Assembly (NCBI RefSeq): GCF_028289705.1
Contig: NZ_JANQOI010000085.1
Coordinates: forward strand, 1 to 39,025
Source of the DNA: Pelagibius sp.
GTDB lineage: Bacteria > Pseudomonadota > Alphaproteobacteria > Kiloniellales > Kiloniellaceae
Length of the DNA stretch: 39,025 nt
Direction: 5' to 3'
In this document: positions 7,731 to 25,896 of the stretch, one piece after another
Layout: every line of letters begins with the position of its first letter
How positions within the stretch are numbered: position 1 is the stretch's first letter
Notes under the pieces: model-generated
The model's database searches: none
Told to the model about the DNA's origin: nothing
What the model saw: only the letters and a program-made list of their open reading frames with translations
Program-made: the position numbers and the translations under genes

Positions 7731-8417
7731 GTGTTCAGAAGCGTACTCGTTCCGATCAACCGGGCCGGATGGCCCTTCATCGGCGCGGCCTTCGCCGCAG
7801 CGGTGATCCTGGGCCTGCTGTGGGGGCCGCTGTTCTGGCTGGGGCTGCTGGCGACCGCATTCTGCACCTATTTCTTCCGTGATCCGCCGCGGGTCACCCC
7901 GACGCGGCCGGGCCTGGTGATCGCGCCGGCCGACGGCATGGTGCAGCCGATCGTGCGGGCGGTCCCGCCGCCGGAACTGGAACTGGGCGACCAGCCGCTG
8001 ACCCGGGTTTCCATCTTCCTCAACGTATTCAACGTACACGTCAACCGGGTGCCGGCGGATGGGAAGATCTCAGCCCTGTCGTATCGGCCGGGCAAGTTTC
8101 TCAACGCCGCCCTCGACAAGGCCTCAGAGGACAACGAGCGGATGTCCCTGAAGGTCACCATCTACGACGGCGTCGAGCTGGGCTTCGTTCAGATCGCCGG
8201 CCTGGTGGCACGGCGCATCATCTGCCATGCCACGCTGGGACAGCCGGTGCGCGCCGGCCAGGTCTTCGGGCTGATCCGCTTCGGCAGCCGCATGGACGTC
8301 TACCTGCCGGAAGGGGTCGCGCCCATCGTGGTACCCTATCAGACGGCGGTGGCTGGAGAGACCGTGATCGCCGATCTCATGTCCCAGGAACCGGCGCGCG
8401 AGGGGGAGGAGCGCTAG
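7731..8417 (+). CDS. psd: Phosphatidylserine decarboxylase proenzyme (short, Psd-A type)
   Basis: This enzyme makes phosphatidylethanolamine by decarboxylating phosphatidylserine at the inner membrane. The 228-residue protein has a hydrophobic N-terminal segment (WPFIGAAFAAAVILGLLWGPLFWLGLL). It also has YFFRDPPRVTP, PADGMVQ, the conserved FLNVFNVHVNRVPADGKI, and the self-cleavage site RFGSRMD. Family knowledge predicts autocatalytic cleavage between Gly185 and Ser186, turning the serine into the pyruvoyl prosthetic group. The length matches the short alphaproteobacterial form rather than the E. coli type. I chose GTG at 7731 because the protein then starts VFRSVLVPINRAGWPF, like relatives; the frame extends upstream without homology. 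pssA begins one base after its stop, so the two are co-transcribed. Confidence 0.94.
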   Translation: MFRSVLVPINRAGWPFIGAAFAAAVILGLLWGPLFWLGLLATAFCTYFFRDPPRVTPTRPGLVIAPADGMVQPIVRAVPPPELELGDQPLTRVSIFLNVFNVHVNRVPADGKISALSYRPGKFLNAALDKASEDNERMSLKVTIYDGVELGFVQIAGLVARRIICHATLGQPVRAGQVFGLIRFGSRMDVYLPEGVAPIVVPYQTAVAGETVIADLMSQEPAREGEER

Positions 8418-14908: not shown

Positions 14909-15281
14909 GTATCACGCCCCGCCCAAGCGCCGCGTCCGCCTGGACGGAAGAGACGGTAAAGCCTACGCGGTCGCCGCGGTTCTATATACCCTCTGAAGTA
15001 GCAAATCTCATTCAGCGGTGGAACGGCGGGCGTCCGCCCGCGGGGCCGATGCCAAGATTTCCCAGCGCTGCGCTCATGCCTCTGTCTTCAACAGGAGTGT
15101 CCATGAAATCGTTATTTATCAATGATATAATCATTAGATGTCTCTAAATGCATGCTACGCGCACGAACTATCTGTCCTGATTGTTTGATTTGAATGTTCT
15201 GGCGGGGCAAGCGCTTCATTTTCGATTAATCCGATTGTGCGACCAATGCGGGAACAACGACCGCCGCACCGGAACTGAGTG
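14909..15281. other. Intergenic region upstream of the first chemoreceptor gene
   Basis: This 373-base gap contains no convincing gene. Its right half is markedly AT-rich. A dyad, AATGAT-ATA-ATCATT, lies at 15121-15135. A 14-codon frame starts at 15102 behind an AGGAG and ends at 15146; it is too short to call. The region presumably carries the promoter of the chemoreceptor gene, but I cannot place boxes with confidence. Confidence 0.5.
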
Positions 15282-17348
15282 ATGATCGGCACCCTCCTCA
15301 GCAAGCTGAAGATTCGCACACGCATTGCCATCGCCCTGGCCCTGCCCCTGTTGGGCCTGCTCGTCCTATCGGCGATCTCTTTCACCAATCAATTGAAGAC
15401 CTCGGGAGAGATGGAGCAGCTCGGTGAACTGGCCGAGTTGGCGCCCCAGATTTCCGCTTTGGTGCACGAGTTGCAGAAAGAACGCGGTGCCTCGGCCGGC
15501 TTCATCGGCCAAAAGGGCCAGGGCGCTTTCAGCGAGAAGCTGGCAAGCCAGCGCCAATCCACCGACGCGCAGCTGACCCAGTTCACCACAGTGATCGAGG
15601 CCTTTGAGGCCGGGCGCTTCGGCGCCGTGTTTCAGGACAAGCTCCGCGAGGCCCTGGACAGGGTCGCTCAGTTGGACCGGCAGCGGGCGGCGGTCAGCGA
15701 CTTCTCACTCACCGTCGGCGAGATGGCGAAGTACTACACCACCACCATCGCCAAGCTGCTGGCTACGGTCGGTGAGATGGCGGTGCTCAGCACCAATGCC
15801 GAGGTGACCAATTCCATCGTTGCCTACACCAGCTTCCTTCAGGCCAAGGAGAGGGCCGGGATCGAGCGGGCCATGGGGGCCAACGGCTTCGGCAAGGGCA
15901 GCTTTGCTCCCAGGGTCCATCAGCGCTTCGTGTCGCTCATCGCCCAGCAGGGCGCCTTCCTTGCAGTGTTCAAGGCCTATGCCAGCGAAGAGCAACGCGG
16001 CTTCTTCGCCGAGACGCTCAAGGGCTCCGCGATCGAGCGGGTCGAGGCCATGCGCAAGGCCGCGGTCGGCAGCGTCTACGGCGGCGACCTGGGCGATACC
16101 ACCGGGGCCCTGTGGTTCGAAACCATCACCCAGAAGATCAACCTGCTGAAGACCGTGGAGGACCGCGTTGCCGCCGATCTGCGGGCGCAGGTGGGATCGC
16201 TGGGGAACAGCGCCCAACGGACGCTGGTGACCGACTCGATCGTGATGGCGTTGCTGCTTTTGGCCACTCTGCTGATCGTCTCGCTCGCCGTCCGCAGCGT
16301 CACCCTGCCGGTTGCCGGCATCACCGCGCGGATGAATGCCCTGGCCGCGGGCGATCTTACGGTGGACATCACCGGCACCGAGCGCGGCGACGAACTGGGC
16401 GAGATGGCCCGCGCGGTGCTGGTGTTCAAGGAGCAGGGGATCGAGGCCCAACGCCTGCAGGAGGAACGCGAGCGCGACCGCCAGCGCAGCGAACAGGAAA
16501 AGCGCAGTGCCATCCATTCCCTGGCCGCGGACGTCGAGGCCAGCCTCGATCCGGTGGTCAGCGAGGTATCAGGCGCATCCGACCAGCTCCGCACCACGGC
16601 AGAGGGCCTTTCATCCGCGGCCGGGCTGACCAACGAGCGGGCGGAGCGAGTCTCGTCCGCCGCCGACCGGGCCTCGGGCAACGTCCAGGCGGTCGCTTCC
16701 GCGGCCGAGGAGCTCTCCGGCTCGATCGGAGAGATCTCCCGCCAGGTGGCACAGTCCCAGCAGATCTCGGGCAGGGCAGTGACCGAGGCGGTCCGGGCCA
16801 GTGAGACCGTGAACGGTCTGGCGGCGGCAGCCCAGAAGATCGGCGATGTGGTGAACCTCATCCAGGACATCGCCGAGCAGACCAATCTCCTGGCGCTCAA
16901 TGCGACCATCGAAGCGGCCCGCGCCGGCGAGGCCGGCAAGGGCTTTGCCGTGGTGGCCAGCGAGGTGAAGTCGCTGGCCAACCAGACCGCCAAGGCCACC
17001 GAGGACATTGGCAATCAGATCAGCGAGATGCAGTCGGTGACCGGCAATACGGTCCAGGCCATCGAGAGCGTCCGCGCGACCATCGATGAGATCGGCAGCA
17101 CCGCCACCGCAATCGCCTCGGCGGTCGAGGAACAGGATGCGGCGACCCAGGAGATCTCCCGGAACGTGCAGGAGGTTGCGCAAGGCGCCCAGGAGGTGAC
17201 CAGCAACATCGGCGCGGTGACCGAAGCGGCCTCGCAGTCCGGTTCCTCGGCCAGCCTGGTGCTCCAGGCTTCCGATCAACTGGCCGACGGTTCCAAGGTC
17301 CTGCGCAGCAAGCTCAACGAATTCCTCGATAAGCTGCGCGCGGCTTAG
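15282..17348 (+). CDS. Methyl-accepting chemotaxis protein with NIT (nitrate/nitrite-sensing-type) domain, copy 1
   Basis: The 688-residue receptor has TM1 at about residues 12-35 and a large periplasmic helical domain. That domain contains [24 protein letters not shown] and [20 protein letters not shown], the hallmarks of the NIT family. TM2 lies near 316-338 ([19 protein letters not shown]). A HAMP linker follows, then the cytoplasmic signalling rod whose hairpin tip reads [23 protein letters not shown] domains in some proteins bind nitrate or nitrite; here the ligand is inferred only from the fold. There is no C-terminal CheR-tethering pentapeptide. I chose ATG at 15282 (MIGTLLSKL) to match the paralogue downstream. 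A nearly equal-length copy follows in tandem. Confidence 0.93.
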
Positions 17349-17859: not shown

Positions 17860-19926
17860 ATGATCGGCAACCTTCTCAGTAAGTTGAGAATTCGCACGCG
17901 TATTGGGATCGCCTTGGCCTTGCCTCTGCTAGGCCTGCTGAGCCTCTCCGCACTGTCTTTCACCAACCAGCTCAAGATCGCCGGCGACATGGAGCGCCTC
18001 AACGAGCTTGCCGATCTGGCGCCGGAGATCTCGGCGCTGGTGCACGAGTTGCAGAAGGAACGGGGCGCCTCCGCCGGTTTCATCGGTCAAAAAGGCCAGG
18101 GCGCCTTCAGTGAAAAGCTGGCCAGCCAGCGCAAGGCGACCGATGCGCAGATCGCGCAGTTCTCGACAGCCATGGACGGCTTTCAGGCGGAGGGCTTCAG
18201 CCCGCTGTTCCAGCAGAAACTTCAGGATGCCCAGGACATGATGGCGCGTCTGGACCAGCAGCGCGCCGGGGTCAGCGGCTTTTCGCTCACCGTCGGCGAG
18301 ATGGCCAAGTACTACACCACCACCATCGCAAAGCTGCTGGATACGGTGGGCGAGATGGCGGTGCTCAGCACCAATGCCGAGGTGACCAACTCCATCGTTG
18401 CCTACAACAGCTTCCTCCAGGCCAAGGAACGGGCCGGGATCGAGCGGGCCATGGGTGCCAACGGCTTCGGCAAGGGCAGCTTCGCCCCCACGGTTCATCA
18501 GCGCTTCGTATCGCTGATCGCCCAGCAGGATGCCTTCCTCGCGACCTTCCGGGCCTATGCCAGCGTCGGGGAGCGCAGCTTCTTCGCCGATACCCTCAAG
18601 GGCCCCGTGGTGGAAGAGGTGGAGGGCATGCGCAAGGTGGCGATCGCAAGCGCCTACGGCGGCAGCCTGGGCGAGGTCACCGGGGCCCTCTGGTTCGAGA
18701 CGATCACCCAGAAGATCAACCTGCTGAAGGCGGTCGAAGACCGCATCGCGAGCGACCTGCAGGTCCAGGTGGGCGCGCTGGGCGCGAGCGCCGAGCAGGC
18801 CTTCATGGCCGAGGCGGTCATGACCCTGATCCTGCTTCTGGCCACAGCCGTGATCGTTGCGCTCACGGTCCGCAGCGTGACCGGCCCCGTGGCCGCCACG
18901 ACGGGACAGATGAAGGCACTGGCCGGCGGCGATCTGTCGGTGGAGATCGAGGGAACGCAGCGCGGCGACGAGCTGGGCGAGATGGCCCGCGCCGTGCTGG
19001 TGTTCAAGGATCAGGGGATCGAGGCCCAGCGCCTGCAGCAGGAACGCGAGCGCGACCGCGAGCGCGGCGAGCAGGAAAAGCGCAGTGCCATCCAATCCCT
19101 CGCCGCCGACGTGGAGGCCAGCCTCGATCCGGTGGTCAGCGAGGTCTCCAGCGCTTCGGACCAACTGCGCACCACCGCCGAGGGCCTGTCCAGCGTTGCC
19201 GGCCAGACCACCGAGCGGGCGGGCAAGGTCTCTTCGGCGGCCGAGAGTGCCTCCGGCAACGTGCAGACCGTGGCCTCGGCGGCGGAGGAACTCTCCGGTT
19301 CGATCGGTGAGATCTCCCGCCAGGTGGCGCAGTCCCAGCAGATCTCGAGCAAGGCCATTGTCGAAGCCGACCGCGCCGGCGAGACCGTGAACGGTCTGGC
19401 GGCGGCGGCCCAGAAGATCGGCGATGTGGTGAACCTCATCCAGGACATCGCCGAGCAGACCAACCTCCTGGCGCTCAATGCGACCATCGAGGCGGCGCGG
19501 GCCGGCGAGTCCGGCAAGGGCTTTGCCGTGGTCGCCAGCGAGGTGAAGTCGCTGGCCAACCAGACCGCCAAAGCCACCGAGGACATCGGCAACCAGATCA
19601 GCGAGATGCAGTCGGTGACCGGCAATACGGTCGAGGCCATCGAGAGCGTCCGCGCGATCATCGATGAGATCGGCAGCACCGCCACCGCGATCGCCTCGGC
19701 GGTCGAGGAACAGGATGCGGCGACCCAGGAGATCTCCCGCAACGCCCAGGAAGTGGCCAAGGGCGCCCAGGAGGTGACCAGCAACATCGGCGCGGTGACC
19801 GAGGCGGCCTCGAATTCCGGCCAGTCCGCCAGCGAGGTCCTGCAGGCCTCCGAACAGCTCGCAAAGGGCTCGCAGGTTCTGCGCAGCAAGCTCGACGAGT
19901 TCCTGGAGAAGCTGCGCGCCGCCTAA
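17860..19926 (+). CDS. Methyl-accepting chemotaxis protein with NIT-type sensing domain, copy 2
   Basis: This is a 688-residue paralogue of the receptor encoded just upstream, with the same length and order: TM1, NIT-type periplasmic domain ([18 protein letters not shown]), TM2 (MTLILLLATAVIVALTVRSV), HAMP, and a signalling domain with the [20 protein letters not shown] tip. Differences are concentrated in the periplasmic domain (for example the stretch before DQQRAGVSGFSLTV) and around TM2. The last 250 residues are almost identical. This suggests that the two receptors share the same CheA/CheW arrays but differ in ligand affinity or specificity. It has its own AT-rich upstream region and so probably its own promoter. 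Confidence 0.93.
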   Translation: MIGNLLSKLRIRTRIGIALALPLLGLLSLSALSFTNQLKIAGDMERLNELADLAPEISALVHELQKERGASAGFIGQKGQGAFSEKLASQRKATDAQIAQFSTAMDGFQAEGFSPLFQQKLQDAQDMMARLDQQRAGVSGFSLTVGEMAKYYTTTIAKLLDTVGEMAVLSTNAEVTNSIVAYNSFLQAKERAGIERAMGANGFGKGSFAPTVHQRFVSLIAQQDAFLATFRAYASVGERSFFADTLKGPVVEEVEGMRKVAIASAYGGSLGEVTGALWFETITQKINLLKAVEDRIASDLQVQVGALGASAEQAFMAEAVMTLILLLATAVIVALTVRSVTGPVAATTGQMKALAGGDLSVEIEGTQRGDELGEMARAVLVFKDQGIEAQRLQQERERDRERGEQEKRSAIQSLAADVEASLDPVVSEVSSASDQLRTTAEGLSSVAGQTTERAGKVSSAAESASGNVQTVASAAEELSGSIGEISRQVAQSQQISSKAIVEADRAGETVNGLAAAAQKIGDVVNLIQDIAEQTNLLALNATIEAARAGESGKGFAVVASEVKSLANQTAKATEDIGNQISEMQSVTGNTVEAIESVRAIIDEIGSTATAIASAVEEQDAATQEISRNAQEVAKGAQEVTSNIGAVTEAASNSGQSASEVLQASEQLAKGSQVLRSKLDEFLEKLRAA

Positions 19927-21024: not shown

Positions 21025-21052
21025 TTGTCAGAATTTGGATTCTTCTTATCAT
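21025..21052 (+). promoter_or_regulatory. Sigma70-type promoter of the cobalamin-riboswitch transcript
   Basis: TTGTCA (21025-21030) and TATCAT (21047-21052), each matching five of six consensus bases, are separated by 16 bases. The predicted transcription start near 21059 coincides with the 5' edge of the riboswitch fold, which strengthens the call. Confidence 0.6.
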
Positions 21053-21060
21053 CTTCCGCG

Positions 21061-21252
21061 CTGGTTCCGCCGGATCGGACGAAATGGCGGATTAAAAGGG
21101 AACCCGGTGCGCCGTACCCATCAGGGAGCAACTCCGGGGCTGTACCCGCAACTGTTAGCGGTAGGGAGTGCTCAATTACCGCCACTGGGGATGCCCCTGG
21201 GAAGGCGAGCACATCGATCCCGATAACCGCGAGCCAGAAGACCTGCCAGACA
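21061..21252 (+). ncRNA. Cobalamin (B12) riboswitch
   Basis: The conserved cores appear in order. GGATTAAAAGGGAACCCGGT (21080-21099) is the first. Next come CTCCGGGGCTGTACCCGCAA (21132-21151) with ACTGTTAGCGG, and GCCACTGGGG (21181-21190) with CCTGGGAAGGCG (21196-21208). The B12 box is GCGAGCCAGAAGACCTGCC (21229-21247). The family binds adenosyl- or methylcobalamin and normally shuts off B12 synthesis, B12 uptake or cobalt uptake genes. Just downstream, GGGG-N7-CCCC lies against the AAGGAAG ribosome binding site of the first gene, so translational control is likely. The controlled genes are a 45-codon membrane protein and a metal ABC transporter. Confidence 0.95.
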
Positions 21253-21297
21253 ATTTGAAACCTTTTGCTGGGGCGGGTGTCCCCAAGGAAGATATCA

Positions 21298-21435
21298 ATG
21301 CGTCCGCAAGCTCTCCCGGCCAAACGCCGCTCGGAATTCAATCTCACGACCGCCAGCACGCTGGATCATCTGATCGCCGTCAGCGTCGCCTGCGCGGGAC
21401 TATGGACGATTATCATCGCGACCTTCGGCGTCTAA
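21298..21435 (+). CDS. Small one-helix membrane protein, first gene of the B12-riboswitch operon
   Basis: The 45-residue protein begins MRPQALPAKRRSEFNLTTAS and continues into a hydrophobic helix, LIAVSVACAGLWTIIIATFG, that runs nearly to the C-terminus. The KRR stretch predicts the N-terminus inside the cytosol. AAGGAAG six bases or so upstream of the ATG and the position 45 bases past the B12 box make it the first translated gene. The ABC ATPase gene starts 15 bases after its stop. CbtB, a known B12-controlled small membrane protein, has a histidine-rich tail that is absent here, so this is not CbtB. It could be an accessory subunit of the transporter, or a leader whose translation couples riboswitch and ATPase. 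No family is recognised. Confidence 0.7.
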   Translation: MRPQALPAKRRSEFNLTTASTLDHLIAVSVACAGLWTIIIATFGV

Positions 21436-21450
21436 GCACGCCTTAGACCC

Positions 21451-22212
21451 ATGCCCCGATCAGTATTGCTTTCGACCGCCGGGCTCATGCTCGGCTACCG
21501 GGATGTGACGGTCGTCGAAGACGTCGCCTTCGAACTTGGCCGCGGCGATGTGCTCGCAGTGGTCGGCCATAACGGTTCGGGGAAATCGACCCTGATCAAG
21601 ACACTGCTGGGCGCTCTGCCGCCGCTGGCCGGCGCACTGCGCTGGCCCGCCGGGCGGCCGCAGAGAATTGCCTACCTGGGCCAGCGGACGGAGTTCGACA
21701 GCCGTTTTCCCATCAGGGTCCGCGATCTGGCGGCAATGGGCGCCTGGTCCGGGTTGGGATTTCTCGGTCGTGTCGACGACGAGTGCCGTGCCCGTATCGA
21801 GTCCGCCCTGGAGCGTACCGGCACCGCCAAGATCGCCGACATGCCGCTGCACAAGCTTTCGGCGGGGCAACTGCAGCGGGCGCTGTTCGCCCGCACCATG
21901 GTCCAGGACGCGCCGTTGATCCTGTTGGACGAGCCCTTTACCGCCATCGATCAGACGACGGAAGCGGCACTGCTGAGCCTGATCAACAGTTGGGCGGCCG
22001 AGGGGCGCTCCGTGATCCTGGTGCTGCACGACCTTTCCGCAGTTCTGCAGCATTGCACGTCAGCGCTGCTCCTCGGTGACGGCCGCGCGCTTTTCGGCGG
22101 CCCCAAGGAAACACTGACGCCGCGCAACCTGGTCGCTCACGGATACCTGTCACAGAGCCAGGCTGCCTGGATCGAGGGCATGTACAGGCAACAGGGTGTC
22201 GATCGTGTTTGA
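21451..22212 (+). CDS. Metal ABC transporter, ATP-binding protein (Znu/Mnt type) under B12 control
   Basis: The 253-residue ATPase powers a metal importer. It has Walker A GHNGSGKST at about residues 38-46, the Q-loop region IAYLGQRTEFDSRFPIRV, the signature LSAGQLQRALFARTM near 136, Walker B LILLDEPFTAID near 157, and the switch histidine in VLHDLSAVLQHC. The RFPIRVRDLAAMGAWS segment is typical of the zinc/manganese (Znu/Mnt/Sit) group rather than of cobalt ECF (CbiO) ATPases. Its 3' end overlaps the permease gene by 17 bases. It follows a 45-codon membrane-protein gene and the cobalamin riboswitch, so B12 status should govern expression. Metal specificity is not fixed by this subunit. Confidence 0.92.
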   Translation: MPRSVLLSTAGLMLGYRDVTVVEDVAFELGRGDVLAVVGHNGSGKSTLIKTLLGALPPLAGALRWPAGRPQRIAYLGQRTEFDSRFPIRVRDLAAMGAWSGLGFLGRVDDECRARIESALERTGTAKIADMPLHKLSAGQLQRALFARTMVQDAPLILLDEPFTAIDQTTEAALLSLINSWAAEGRSVILVLHDLSAVLQHCTSALLLGDGRALFGGPKETLTPRNLVAHGYLSQSQAAWIEGMYRQQGVDRV

Positions 22213-23116
22213 GTGGCTCGACTACGCCTTCATGATCCGGGCGCTGACTGCGACCACGGTCTTGAGCTTCTCCGTCGCGCCGATCGGCGCGTTCCTGGTG
22301 CTCAGGCGCTTGTCCCTCGCCGGCGAGGCAATGGCCCACGCAATCGTCCCCGGCATTGTCATCGCTTTCGTGGTCGCCGGGCTATCGGTTGCGTCCATGA
22401 TCGTCGGCGGCTTGACCGCCGGAATCGCCGTCGCGGCGCTGACCAGCCTTCTCGCGCGCATGACCATCATCCGCGAGGACGCGAGCCTGGCGTCGCTCTA
22501 TCTGATCGCGCTCGCGCTCGGCATCTTCATACTGTCGGCTGCCGGCTCGGCGGTGCCGTTGAAGAGCTTTCTGTTCGGCTCGATCCTGGGCATCGACGAC
22601 GAGACCTTAATCCTGATCGGTGCCACCGCGACCATTACGTTGGTGAGCTTCGCACTGATCTTCAGACCGCTGATCACCAACACCATCGATCCGGTGTTCC
22701 ACGAAAGCCAATCCAAACGTCCCGGCCTGGTGACCCAGTGGTTCATGTTTCTGGTCGTGCTCAATCTGTTGGGCGCGTTCAAGGCCCTCGGAACCCTGAT
22801 GGCCGTCGGATTGATGATCTTGCCGGCGACCGCGGCCCGCTATTGGGTCTCGACGATCACCGGCTACTTGATCGTGACCTTCGTGTTCGCGCTGTTCAGC
22901 TGCTGGATCGGGCTCATTGTCTCATTTTATTTGCCGGACGTGCCATCGGGCCCGGCAATCGTGCTGGTGGCGGCGGTGTTTTTCGTCGTCAGCCTGATTT
23001 TCGCACCACAAGGATTCCATGCCGGGCTGCGGCTCAACCCGTTCCGCCGCCGGACCCTGCCTGCGAGTCCACCGAACCTCAACAAAGGAGACAAAGCTCA
23101 TGAAGAAACTTCTTAG
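22196..23116 (+). CDS. Metal ABC transporter, permease (ZnuB/MntB type) under B12 control
   Basis: The 306-residue integral membrane protein has about eight or nine hydrophobic helices and the ABC-3 family blocks SFSVAPIGAFLVLRRLSLAGEAMAHA, VLNLLGAFKALGTLMAVGLMILPATAARYW and SFYLPDVPSGPAIVLVAAVFF. ABC-3 permeases import Zn, Mn or Fe. It starts with GTG at 22196, overlapping the ATPase gene by 17 bases, and its end overlaps the binding-protein start by 17 bases, so the three subunits are translationally linked. A GTG nine bases later is an alternative start. The operon context predicts that low cobalamin increases its expression. Confidence 0.92.
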   Translation: MSIVFEWLDYAFMIRALTATTVLSFSVAPIGAFLVLRRLSLAGEAMAHAIVPGIVIAFVVAGLSVASMIVGGLTAGIAVAALTSLLARMTIIREDASLASLYLIALALGIFILSAAGSAVPLKSFLFGSILGIDDETLILIGATATITLVSFALIFRPLITNTIDPVFHESQSKRPGLVTQWFMFLVVLNLLGAFKALGTLMAVGLMILPATAARYWVSTITGYLIVTFVFALFSCWIGLIVSFYLPDVPSGPAIVLVAAVFFVVSLIFAPQGFHAGLRLNPFRRRTLPASPPNLNKGDKAHEETS

Positions 23117-23981
23117 TGCCCTGTTGGTCGTTGGCCTGGCGTTTACCGCCATGCCTGCGGCGGCGGAAGAGAAGCTCAAAGTCGTTGCCAGCTTCTCCAT
23201 TCTCGGCGACATGGTCCGCCAAGTGACCGGCGATTTGGCCGAGGTCACGACCATCGTCGGCCCGGATGCGGATGCCCACGTCTACACGCCCAGCGCAAGC
23301 GACGCCAAGGCCGTTGCCAATGCCGACGTGATTTTCGTTAACGGTTTGGGGTTCGAGACCTGGTCGAAAACCTTGATTGAAACCTCAGGGACCAAGGGAG
23401 ACGTGTTCGTCGCGACCGAAGGTGTGGAACCCTTGAAGGTCGACGGCGAAACCGATCCGCACGCCTGGAACGCGCTCACCAACGGCATGATCTACATCGC
23501 CAACATTGCCAAAAGCCTGGCGAGCGCCGACCCGGAGAACGCGGCGACCTACCAGGCCAATGCCCAGGCTTACTCTGAAAGACTGTCTGCGCTGCACAGC
23601 CATGCACTCAGCGAGTTTAAAAAACTGCCTGCCGATCGGCGTACCGTCGTGACGGCCCATGACGCCTTTGGGTATCTGGCGGATGCCTACGGCCTGACGT
23701 TCCTGGCTCCGGTTGGCATCGACACCGAGGCCGAGCCCTCGGCCAAAGACCTCGCCGCGCTCATTGACCACATCAAGGAAGCCGGCGCCGGCGGGCTGTT
23801 CGTCGAGAACATCACCAGTCCGGCACTGGTGCAGCAGATCGAACGCGAAACCGGGATCAAGATCGGCGGGCGGCTGTATTCCGACGCGCTTTCAGAACGC
23901 GGCGGTCCGGCAACCAGCTACGAGACAATGTTCGAGCACAACCTGGATGTGCTCGTCCAGGCGCTCAGCGCGCAGTCGTAG
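23100..23981 (+). CDS. Metal ABC transporter, periplasmic binding protein (TroA/ZnuA family) under B12 control
   Basis: The 293-residue precursor has a signal peptide (MKKLLSALLVVGLAFTAMPAAAEE) and the cluster A-I metal-binding fold. Four likely metal ligands are visible: His60 in DADAHVYTPS, His121 in DPHAWN, His187 in TAHDAFGYLADAYGL, and Asp262 in LYSDALSERGGPATSYE. A His3Asp set is characteristic of TroA-type zinc sites, whereas Mn-type proteins usually have Glu in place of the third His. The histidine-rich flexible loop of ZnuA is missing. AAAGGAG at 23084-23090 sets the start at 23100. It is the last gene of the operon and is followed by a strong terminator. Cobalt, which also favours such ligands, is possible given the riboswitch. 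Confidence 0.92.
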   Translation: MKKLLSALLVVGLAFTAMPAAAEEKLKVVASFSILGDMVRQVTGDLAEVTTIVGPDADAHVYTPSASDAKAVANADVIFVNGLGFETWSKTLIETSGTKGDVFVATEGVEPLKVDGETDPHAWNALTNGMIYIANIAKSLASADPENAATYQANAQAYSERLSALHSHALSEFKKLPADRRTVVTAHDAFGYLADAYGLTFLAPVGIDTEAEPSAKDLAALIDHIKEAGAGGLFVENITSPALVQQIERETGIKIGGRLYSDALSERGGPATSYETMFEHNLDVLVQALSAQS

Positions 23982-24005: not shown

Positions 24006-24037
24006 AAAACCCCCGTGACGAACCCGGGGGTTTTTTG
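24006..24037. terminator. Strong (bidirectional) intrinsic terminator after the metal ABC operon
   Basis: AAAAACCCCCG and CGGGGGTTTTT form an 11-bp stem with a nine-base loop, followed by another T on the plus strand and preceded by A-runs. It would also work for transcripts arriving from the right on the minus strand. Confidence 0.9.
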
Positions 24038-24092: not shown

Positions 24093-24239
24093 TCAGGCGC
24101 GGGTTTCGTCCAGCGGCAGCACGTTGGTGTATTTCACCTGCTTGAGGGCGAAGCTGGACTCGATGGAGGCGACGTTGGCGACGCGGGTGAGCTTGGTCTT
24201 CAGGAAGCGCTCGTAGGCGGCGAGGTCGGCCACCACGAC
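24093..24239 (-). pseudogene. 3' remnant of an Lrp/AsnC regulator gene
   Basis: This minus-strand fragment encodes VVVADLAAYERFLKTKLTRV and continues to NVLPLDETRA-stop. It is the same protein sequence as the end of the intact Lrp gene at 25402-25878, apart from the last few residues. There is no start, no helix-turn-helix and no effector domain core, so it cannot be functional. The matching DNA spans 24109-24239 against 25421-25551: 131 bases with six differences, all in silent third positions. Homology stops abruptly at 24239. The two copies bracket the foreign-looking coiled-coil gene and probably mark an insertion. Confidence 0.85.
24109..24239. repeat. Direct repeat, left copy (lrp 3' end)
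   Basis: This 131-base segment is about 95% identical to 25421-25551 in the same orientation. It is the left boundary of a roughly 1.2-kb segment of different composition. It may be an attachment-site remnant, or the scar of a homologous insertion into the 3' end of lrp. Confidence 0.85.
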
Positions 24240-24312
24240 CCAAAGCTGGTGGCTGAAATCGCAACCACGTTCGCCGAACAAATGTTGCCAGATAGTTGAT
24301 GCCGGTGAACCT

Positions 24313-25401: not shown

Positions 25402-25878
25402 CTAGCCGTCGGCCGCGCCATCCAGCGGCAGCACGTTGGTGTATTTGACTTGCTTGAGGGCGAAGCTGGATTCGATGGAAGCGACGTTGGCGACGCGGGT
25501 CAGCTTGGTCTTCAGGAAGCGCTCATAGGCGGCGAGGTCGGCCACCACGACGCGCAGCAGATAATCCTGGGTGCCGGTCATCAGATAGCACTCCAGCACC
25601 TCCGGATAGGCGCTCACCTCCGCCTCGAAGCGGTCCAGGTCTTCTTCCTGCTGGCGCTCCAGCTTGATGGAAATGAAGACCGAGACAGGCAGGGCGACGG
25701 CGCCCTGGTCCACCAGCGCGACGTAGCGCTCGATCACCCCGGCCTGTTCCAACTGGCGCACGCGGCGCAGGCAGGGCGAGGGGGACAGGCCAACCCGCTC
25801 GGCCAGTTCCACGTTGCTCAGGCGGCCGTCGGCCTGCAGCGCCGCCAAAATCTTCAGGTCGATCGCATCCAAAGGCAT
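25402..25878 (-). CDS. Lrp/AsnC-family transcriptional regulator (MdeR-like by context)
   Basis: The roughly 158-residue regulator has the N-terminal Lrp helix-turn-helix (DAIDLKILAALQADGRLSNVELAERVGLSPSPCLRRVRQL) and a C-terminal RAM ligand-binding domain with YLMTGTQDYLLRVVVADLAAYERF. Lrp/AsnC proteins form octamers that sense amino acids. It is divergent from a gene for a homodimeric 2-oxo acid dehydrogenase E1. In Pseudomonas putida an Lrp homologue, MdeR, controls the similar mdeB with methionine gamma-lyase, so 2-oxobutyrate metabolism is a reasonable guess. The start may be ATG at 25878 or GTG at 25887. Its last 131 coding bases are repeated at 24109-24239. Two TGGCA/TGCC dyads in the divergent gap are candidate operators. 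Confidence 0.93.
   Translation of the reverse strand: MPLDAIDLKILAALQADGRLSNVELAERVGLSPSPCLRRVRQLEQAGVIERYVALVDQGAVALPVSVFISIKLERQQEEDLDRFEAEVSAYPEVLECYLMTGTQDYLLRVVVADLAAYERFLKTKLTRVANVASIESSFALKQVKYTNVLPLDGAADG
25421..25551. repeat. Direct repeat, right copy (inside intact lrp)
   Basis: This copy is the partner of 24109-24239. It is the coding 3' end of the intact Lrp gene, so if the insertion was site-specific, this copy rebuilt the gene end while the displaced original end became the left copy. Confidence 0.85.
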
Positions 25879-25881
25879 TCC

Positions 25882-25896
25882 TGGCACAATCTGCCA
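25882..25896. promoter_or_regulatory. Candidate Lrp operator 1 (TGGCA-N5-TGCCA)
   Basis: TGGCA (25882-25886) and TGCCA (25892-25896) form a dyad just upstream of the lrp ATG at 25878. It shares half-sites with a second dyad centred about 71 bases away, close to seven helical turns, as expected for Lrp-type octamer binding. The regulator assignment is inferred. Confidence 0.45.

Follow-up and report, generated by a model that had tools for sequence, protein, structure and literature searches.

According to the excerpts available of two sources, CbiMNQO, CbtAB, NiCoT and HupE transport cobalt or are predicted to do so, and several are under cobalamin (B12) riboswitches (PMC2667541, PMC3766115), and an excerpt of a third places the ATP-binding cassette (ABC) cobalt importer CbtJKL of Sinorhizobium meliloti, whose CbtJ is BtuF-like, under a B12 riboswitch as well (PMC7689651). 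In this paper we analyse a stretch of 39,025 nucleotides from Pelagibius sp. (assembly GCF_028289705.1, contig NZ_JANQOI010000085.1, positions 1-39,025 of the forward strand; this whole stretch is called the window), in which a B12 riboswitch precedes the operon of an ABC-3 family metal importer at positions 21,025-23,981. We know of no B12 riboswitch on TroA/PsaABC or ZnuABC, with which this importer shares the cluster A-I/ABC-3 architecture. In the literature searched, which was available in part, no ABC-3 system was found described as carrying a B12 riboswitch; an earlier mention is possible.

The window system is like CbtJKL in being an ABC importer under a B12 riboswitch, but its binding protein belongs to PF01297, and CbiMNQO, CbtAB, NiCoT and HupE are of transporter families other than its own. 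With AztABC(D) of Paracoccus and relatives it shares the same three subunits and a binding site of three histidines and one aspartate (HHHD); NCBIfam ranks AztA, AztB and AztC first for the three proteins, the permease is 44-45% identical to the annotated Paracoccus AztB and to a Skermanella permease, and a small open reading frame (ORF) stands before the ATPase gene in the outgroup loci defined below too. Unlike AztABC(D), it falls below all three curated cut-offs (Table 1), carries the riboswitch, has Glu and Ser for Asp and His in the permease, and is followed by no AztD-sized plus-strand ORF directly after position 23981 in the window, as judged from the ORF list with no test by hidden Markov model. 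TroA/PsaABC and ZnuABC both retain Asp at the position of this Glu. The system is a riboswitch-controlled metal importer from a family not found in that role in the literature searched, with cobalt as its most likely cargo, and the operon as a whole probably encodes an importer of cobalt that is repressed by cobalamin and derives from an AztABC-like importer of zinc, where we infer cobalt as substrate and cobalamin as ligand.

Distribution of the riboswitch-transporter link

A first-pass annotation of the window had named a complete B12 riboswitch, and this was borne out by the full RF00174 covariance model, which scores well above its gathering threshold (Table 1) and gives the sole Rfam match over cut-off within the window. 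The pairing of riboswitch and transporter is widespread, not a one-off. An order-level search of 60 genomes besides the window's own, with the binding protein as target, found a close binding protein (86% identity) in one genome only, G041, which also has the riboswitch and the small ORF; in a class-level search of 385 genomes, 16 of the 17 best relatives were examined (G236 was left out), and the riboswitch is present in two (67% and 54% identity) and not in the other 14 (46-52%). Named genomes were scanned with four proteins as seeds, which gave the best 80 of at least 80 loci. A steep fall in the scores of binding protein and permease led us to place 16 of them in an outgroup (for L138, one of the 16, there is no permease score), and the remaining 64 were taken as clade candidates. 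Five clade contigs start inside the operon (L078, L083, L085, L100 and L126), so their riboswitch state is not assessable. The 62 assessable clade loci include the window, L023 and L058, and 55 of them have a riboswitch at the transporter operon; the order of riboswitch, small ORF and ABC genes, which the first-pass annotation had suggested looking for elsewhere, thus recurs in other genomes.

A motif pattern placed the riboswitch in 52 of the 64 non-outgroup loci, in L132 directly before the binding-protein gene. Rfam confirmed 34 of the 34 pattern-positive loci tested, the other positives resting on the pattern, and found no riboswitch in the 12 pattern-negative clade loci, seven of them true negatives (L075, L077, L084, L086, L121, L129 and L130), or in 28 more distant loci (4, 14 and 10 of the 16 outgroup loci). 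Among 72,556 plasmid records searched by tblastn, none carries the transporter at 60% identity or more.

Some of these operons have further riboswitches nearby. A second, divergent B12 riboswitch adjoins the operon at L096 (4486-4677, minus strand) and L099 (4402-4589, minus strand), and in L080 a B12 riboswitch at 2446-2663, just upstream of the riboswitch-transporter operon, precedes a Porin_4 gene, perhaps a B12-controlled porin. Just downstream of the binding-protein gene, L097, L136 (about 8036-8173) and L109 (7966-8102) have a second riboswitch-like pattern (pattern match only) before what appears by eye to be an Mrp-type antiporter.

Hosts, neighbouring genes and the cargo

The riboswitch hosts mostly make B12. 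CobN is over cut-off in 46 of 54 clade genomes, namely 44 of 47 with the riboswitch, one of six without it, and G446, whose riboswitch state is not assessable; the genome of L121 was left out. As controls, 50 genomes of the order and the class were picked by hand, most of them large and complete, and the 33 with CobN over cut-off were compared with the 44 riboswitch-bearing CobN genomes; the p value is to be read as ignoring kinship, because the positives are rich in Rhodobacterales. CbtA or CbiM is found in seven of the 44 hosts versus 21 of the 33 controls (p 3e-5). At least two ZnuA-family matches (matches, not counted genes) occur in 43 of 44 hosts versus 13 of 33 controls, so the riboswitch-linked one is usually extra.

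Neighbouring genes were surveyed at 83 loci by phmmer (E 1e-10), with nine cob proteins and COG0523, WD40 and two Fur-family queries taken from these loci, which are unequal in length, so that short loci can miss neighbours. Genes of the zinc type (Fur-family, COG0523, WD40) adjoin none of the 55 riboswitch loci, six of the seven riboswitch-less loci (all but L084), one of the five whose state is not assessable (L083) and 12 of the 16 outgroup loci. Genes for B12 synthesis stand beside three riboswitch loci, none of the riboswitch-less ones and one not assessable locus (L126): in L074 the operon is flanked by cobA, cobB, bluB and cobO, in L089 cobF, cobA and cobB face it, and in L124 it comes after cobU, cobT and cobS. 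Nine of the ten neighbour proteins submitted passed a cob-family NCBIfam cut-off, the cobS of L126 falling below. In L075 and L077 a Fur-family gene begins 53 bases 3' of the binding-protein gene. That an importer of the zinc family stands under a B12-sensing riboswitch in many B12-making marine bacteria suggests recruitment of a zinc-type pump to import cobalt for the making of B12.

Several observations weigh against that interpretation. Cob neighbours occur at just three of 55 riboswitch loci, and cobO also lies beside one of the 16 outgroup loci (L137). The host comparisons ignore kinship and use hand-picked controls, and of four tree-aware CobN contrasts, too few for a test, three run in the expected direction and one shows no difference. 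The HHHD ligands are identical in clade and outgroup, and at the 80% level no position splits riboswitch-bearing from riboswitch-less members, although the latter adjoin zinc-type genes. NicO (32 of 44 hosts versus 25 of 33 controls) and HupE (28 of 44, many low-scoring, versus 18 of 33) show no difference. The window's own genome also has a second B12-riboswitch ABC operon, the other of its two B12 riboswitches (147 bits; L003, contig C53, 3686-7223) standing before DUF1636, an ABC ATPase, a PF01497 binding protein and a FecCD permease; this operon is BtuFCD- or CbtJKL-like.

The first-pass annotation had offered two readings. The first, a cobalt importer that replaces the usual transporters, is the better supported of the two (CobN in 44 of 47 genomes, depletion of CbtA or CbiM, cob neighbours at three loci), but the replacement holds in part only. 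The transporter as sole cobalt importer is not supported in general, NicO and HupE being equally common in both groups; CbiM, CbtA, NicO and HupE are all missing in three of the 44 riboswitch CobN genomes (G470, G482 and G490) and in two of the 33 controls (G018 and G031), and in the window's own genome CbtA, CbiM and HupE are absent, NicO-family matches being present on two contigs. The other reading, a zinc or manganese importer serving B12-independent isozymes, was rejected for these hosts in its MetE form, since MetE (PF08267) is over cut-off in none of the 54 clade genomes, four having weak matches below it. MetE is also rare in the controls (3 of 33), and its absence is thus not special to hosts of the riboswitch-transporter system.

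Apart from MetE, an importer whose physiological cargo is zinc (or both zinc and cobalt), with expression tied to low cobalamin, is unlikely, though several features fit it. The binding site is AztC-like, and the nearest solved relatives of the binding protein include the entries 5w56/5w57 and 6xpn, of which 5W57 and 6XPN are named AztC in the available part of PMC7463823. The zinc-type genes beside six of the seven riboswitch-less members point the same way, such COG0523-WD40-znuABC arrangements being tied to Zur in an excerpt of PMC2770081. The ligand residues proved uninformative as a guide to cargo; the HHHD set is common to the clade and its zinc-type relatives and so does not separate cobalt from zinc. 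Against zinc stand the 43 of 44 hosts with at least two ZnuA-family matches, the cob neighbours at three loci with zinc-type neighbours at none of the 55, the replacement of the permease Asp by Glu, and the missing MetE, which removes the obvious zinc enzyme for B12 shortage. Manganese is a more doubtful cargo still: an importer for a Mn-dependent class Ib ribonucleotide reductase, used when B12 limits the class II enzyme, would fit the second riboswitch of L096 (134.1 bits), which precedes nrdI of class Ib ribonucleotide reductase, but nrdI was identified at that locus only (NrdF was not surveyed), and the HHHD site is unlike the His-His-Glu-Asp ligand set of Mn-specific binding proteins. It is most improbable that the riboswitch mainly serves a separate leader product with the transporter as incidental passenger; many Rhodobacterales-type leaders do have a short ORF right behind the hairpin, but the small ORF of the operon follows immediately after the hairpin in the window and its closest relatives, and the link to the transporter is kept in 55 of 62 assessable loci.

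Cobalt import under cobalamin control, which we prefer, would bear on the many marine alphaproteobacteria that make B12; CbtA and CbiM are scarce in those with the riboswitch-transporter system. NCBIfam gives the clade proteins no specific name and points only towards zinc systems; in Ruegeria, Roseibium, Shimia and others, the riboswitch-controlled ABC-3 system would be a candidate for the import of cobalt.

History of the clade and changes in the permease

A tree of 76 concatenated ATPase, permease and binding-protein rows was built by a quick method under LG+G4, nine loci without one of the parts being left out. The 60 clade rows form one fully supported branch, on which the riboswitch label changes five times, compared with 20.1 in shuffles, none of which was as low. 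Since the outgroup has no riboswitch, the five changes are most simply read as a single gain followed by four losses. Outgroup rows make up the four longest end branches, but the tree program also raises a warning about where the basal trio L058/L134/L151 joins the outgroup, and L087 is of odd composition; the basal place of the trio is therefore less sure.

The ligands His60, His121, His187 and Asp262 of the binding protein, which lacks a His-rich loop, are as the first-pass annotation described them and are present in 53 of 53 riboswitch rows and nearly invariant elsewhere. In the permease, all 60 clade rows have GEAxxHA in place of the motif GDAxxHA, all 16 outgroup rows having the Asp, and a nearby His is replaced in clade rows by Ser (once by Gly). 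Among the ten class relatives in which a permease was found nine have Asp; L061 has Glu with the His kept, and L062 has Asn for the His. The clade Glu aligns with Asp46 of PsaB, which together with His50 we take to be a metal-handling residue; the permease profile aligns with PsaB 7kyp (E 7e-44) and ZnuB 9oko (E 7e-24). The Glu is kept in riboswitch-less clade members too, and the Asp-to-Glu change would date to about the time of riboswitch gain. A structure model of the permease (mean predicted local distance difference test score 62.7) was too poor to place the Glu/Ser pair and was not used.

Tentatively, and with rather less assurance than the cobalt reading itself, these changes can be put together as a lineage of zinc ABC importers that came under a B12 riboswitch on one occasion and was adapted to cobalt, its marks being Glu for Asp at the permease gate and a small membrane subunit, so far unrecognised, that lost its His-rich start, the riboswitch then being dropped four times, with three of those lines back in zinc-type neighbourhoods, mostly in hosts without CobN. 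The clade, in which the regulation arose a single time and disappeared repeatedly and where the residues to consider are few, offers a natural experiment on how metal importers may change cargo.

The operon, its leader and other features of the window

The features of the region are collected in Table 1. The operon of a 45-residue membrane protein and an ABC-3-family importer was present as first annotated, PF00005, PF00950 and PF01297 occurring together in one operon whose genes overlap or nearly touch. The promoter that had been said to start the RNA at the fold is also there as a consensus match, one such site being found in the region versus a mean of 0.1 in 50 shuffles; from its position the RNA would start just before or at the aptamer, near the first paired element. 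No Zur-like palindrome, which would have offered control by Zur instead of the riboswitch, was found in the window with a consensus of the Zur site and up to three mismatches, and no search was made for a Mur site.

Table 1. Features of the riboswitch-transporter region, in window coordinates
Feature	Position	Strand	Evidence
Promoter-like site TTGTCA-16-TATCAT, sigma-70-like	21025-21052	+	Consensus match only, 10/12 positions
Cobalamin riboswitch aptamer RF00174	21045-21264	+	Rfam, full model, 106.8 bits vs gathering 31.5, E 5.8e-26
Loop L5 (ACCCGC), proposed kissing partner of downstream hairpin loop	21144-21149	+	Complementary to GCGGGT at 21273-21278
Expression-platform hairpin (P13-like) with GCGGGT, ending at ribosome-binding site	21269-21285	+	Kept in relatives
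Ribosome-binding site AAGGAAG of small ORF	21285-21291	+	Sequence
Small ORF, 45 residues, one hydrophobic helix	21298-21435	+	dN<dS
ABC ATPase, AztA-like	21451-22212	+	PF00005; NCBIfam AztA 198.2 bits, below cut-off 220
ABC-3 permease, AztB-like	22196-23116	+	PF00950 162.6 bits; NCBIfam AztB 212.8, below cut-off 280
Permease Glu (outgroup rows: Asp)	22325-22327	+	Alignment
Permease Ser (outgroup rows: His)	22565-22567	+	Alignment
Periplasmic metal-binding protein, ZnuA family, AztC-like	23100-23981	+	PF01297 281.8 bits; NCBIfam AztC 290.8, below cut-off 350
Terminator-like hairpin and T run, 3' of operon	24010-24036	+	Seen directly in sequence

The six-nucleotide complement between L5 and the platform loop is full in 44 of 54 leaders, with covariation at the variable pair (C-CCCGC/GCGGG-G in 33 and A-CCCGC/GCGGG-U in 11), and the other ten deviate at one position or more. 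Control is likely to be translational, judging from the leader sequence, because in the window the hairpin reaches as far as the ribosome-binding site, part of which is paired in the predicted fold, the energy of the fold being not below that of shuffles (z -0.22). At low cobalamin the leader would leave the ribosome-binding site of the small membrane protein free, so that the small protein would be translated together with the tightly spaced genes for ATPase, permease and binding protein, and the importer could take up Co(II) for corrin synthesis. At high cobalamin, binding to the aptamer would let L5 kiss the hairpin loop before the ribosome-binding site, and translation would stop. In Rhodobacterales-type leaders (for example L091, L097 and L088), an ORF of about 20-60 codons behind the hairpin runs towards the ribosome-binding region of the small ORF, a possible leader peptide for translational coupling.

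The small protein is inferred to be a subunit of the transporter. A short ORF whose product ends in a hydrophobic helix is found 5' of the ATPase gene in 54 of 54 riboswitch loci, six of seven riboswitch-less loci and 13 of 13 outgroup loci tested, by a loose test that 159 of 830 random stretches also pass, and a 46-codon ORF occupies the same place in an operon of Skermanella whose annotation is that of a zinc transporter. The window copy has no Pfam match and differs from that of G041 at 11 synonymous and 7 non-synonymous codons (rates of non-synonymous change, dN, 0.14 and of synonymous change, dS, 0.44). At least four His are present in the last 75 residues of 10 of 13 outgroup small proteins, compared with two or fewer in 51 of 54 riboswitch-clade copies. 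Many zinc-type relatives (for example L135, L142, L143 and L149) have a strongly His-rich N-terminal part of the small transmembrane protein, which is mostly missing in the B12 clade. L075 (5216-5360) and L077 have a near-identical transporter; the upstream DNA of L075 differs, and its small ORF is reduced to the last codons.

Two repeats lie close to the operon in the window, the genes being named by eye. A tandem pair of very similar chemoreceptor-like genes (15279-17348 and 17860-19926) stands just upstream of the riboswitch region. Downstream, the 3' end of an AsnC/Lrp-like gene is seemingly duplicated (24100-24300 and 25402-25887) with an ORF of 336 residues between the copies, which looks like the result of an insertion.

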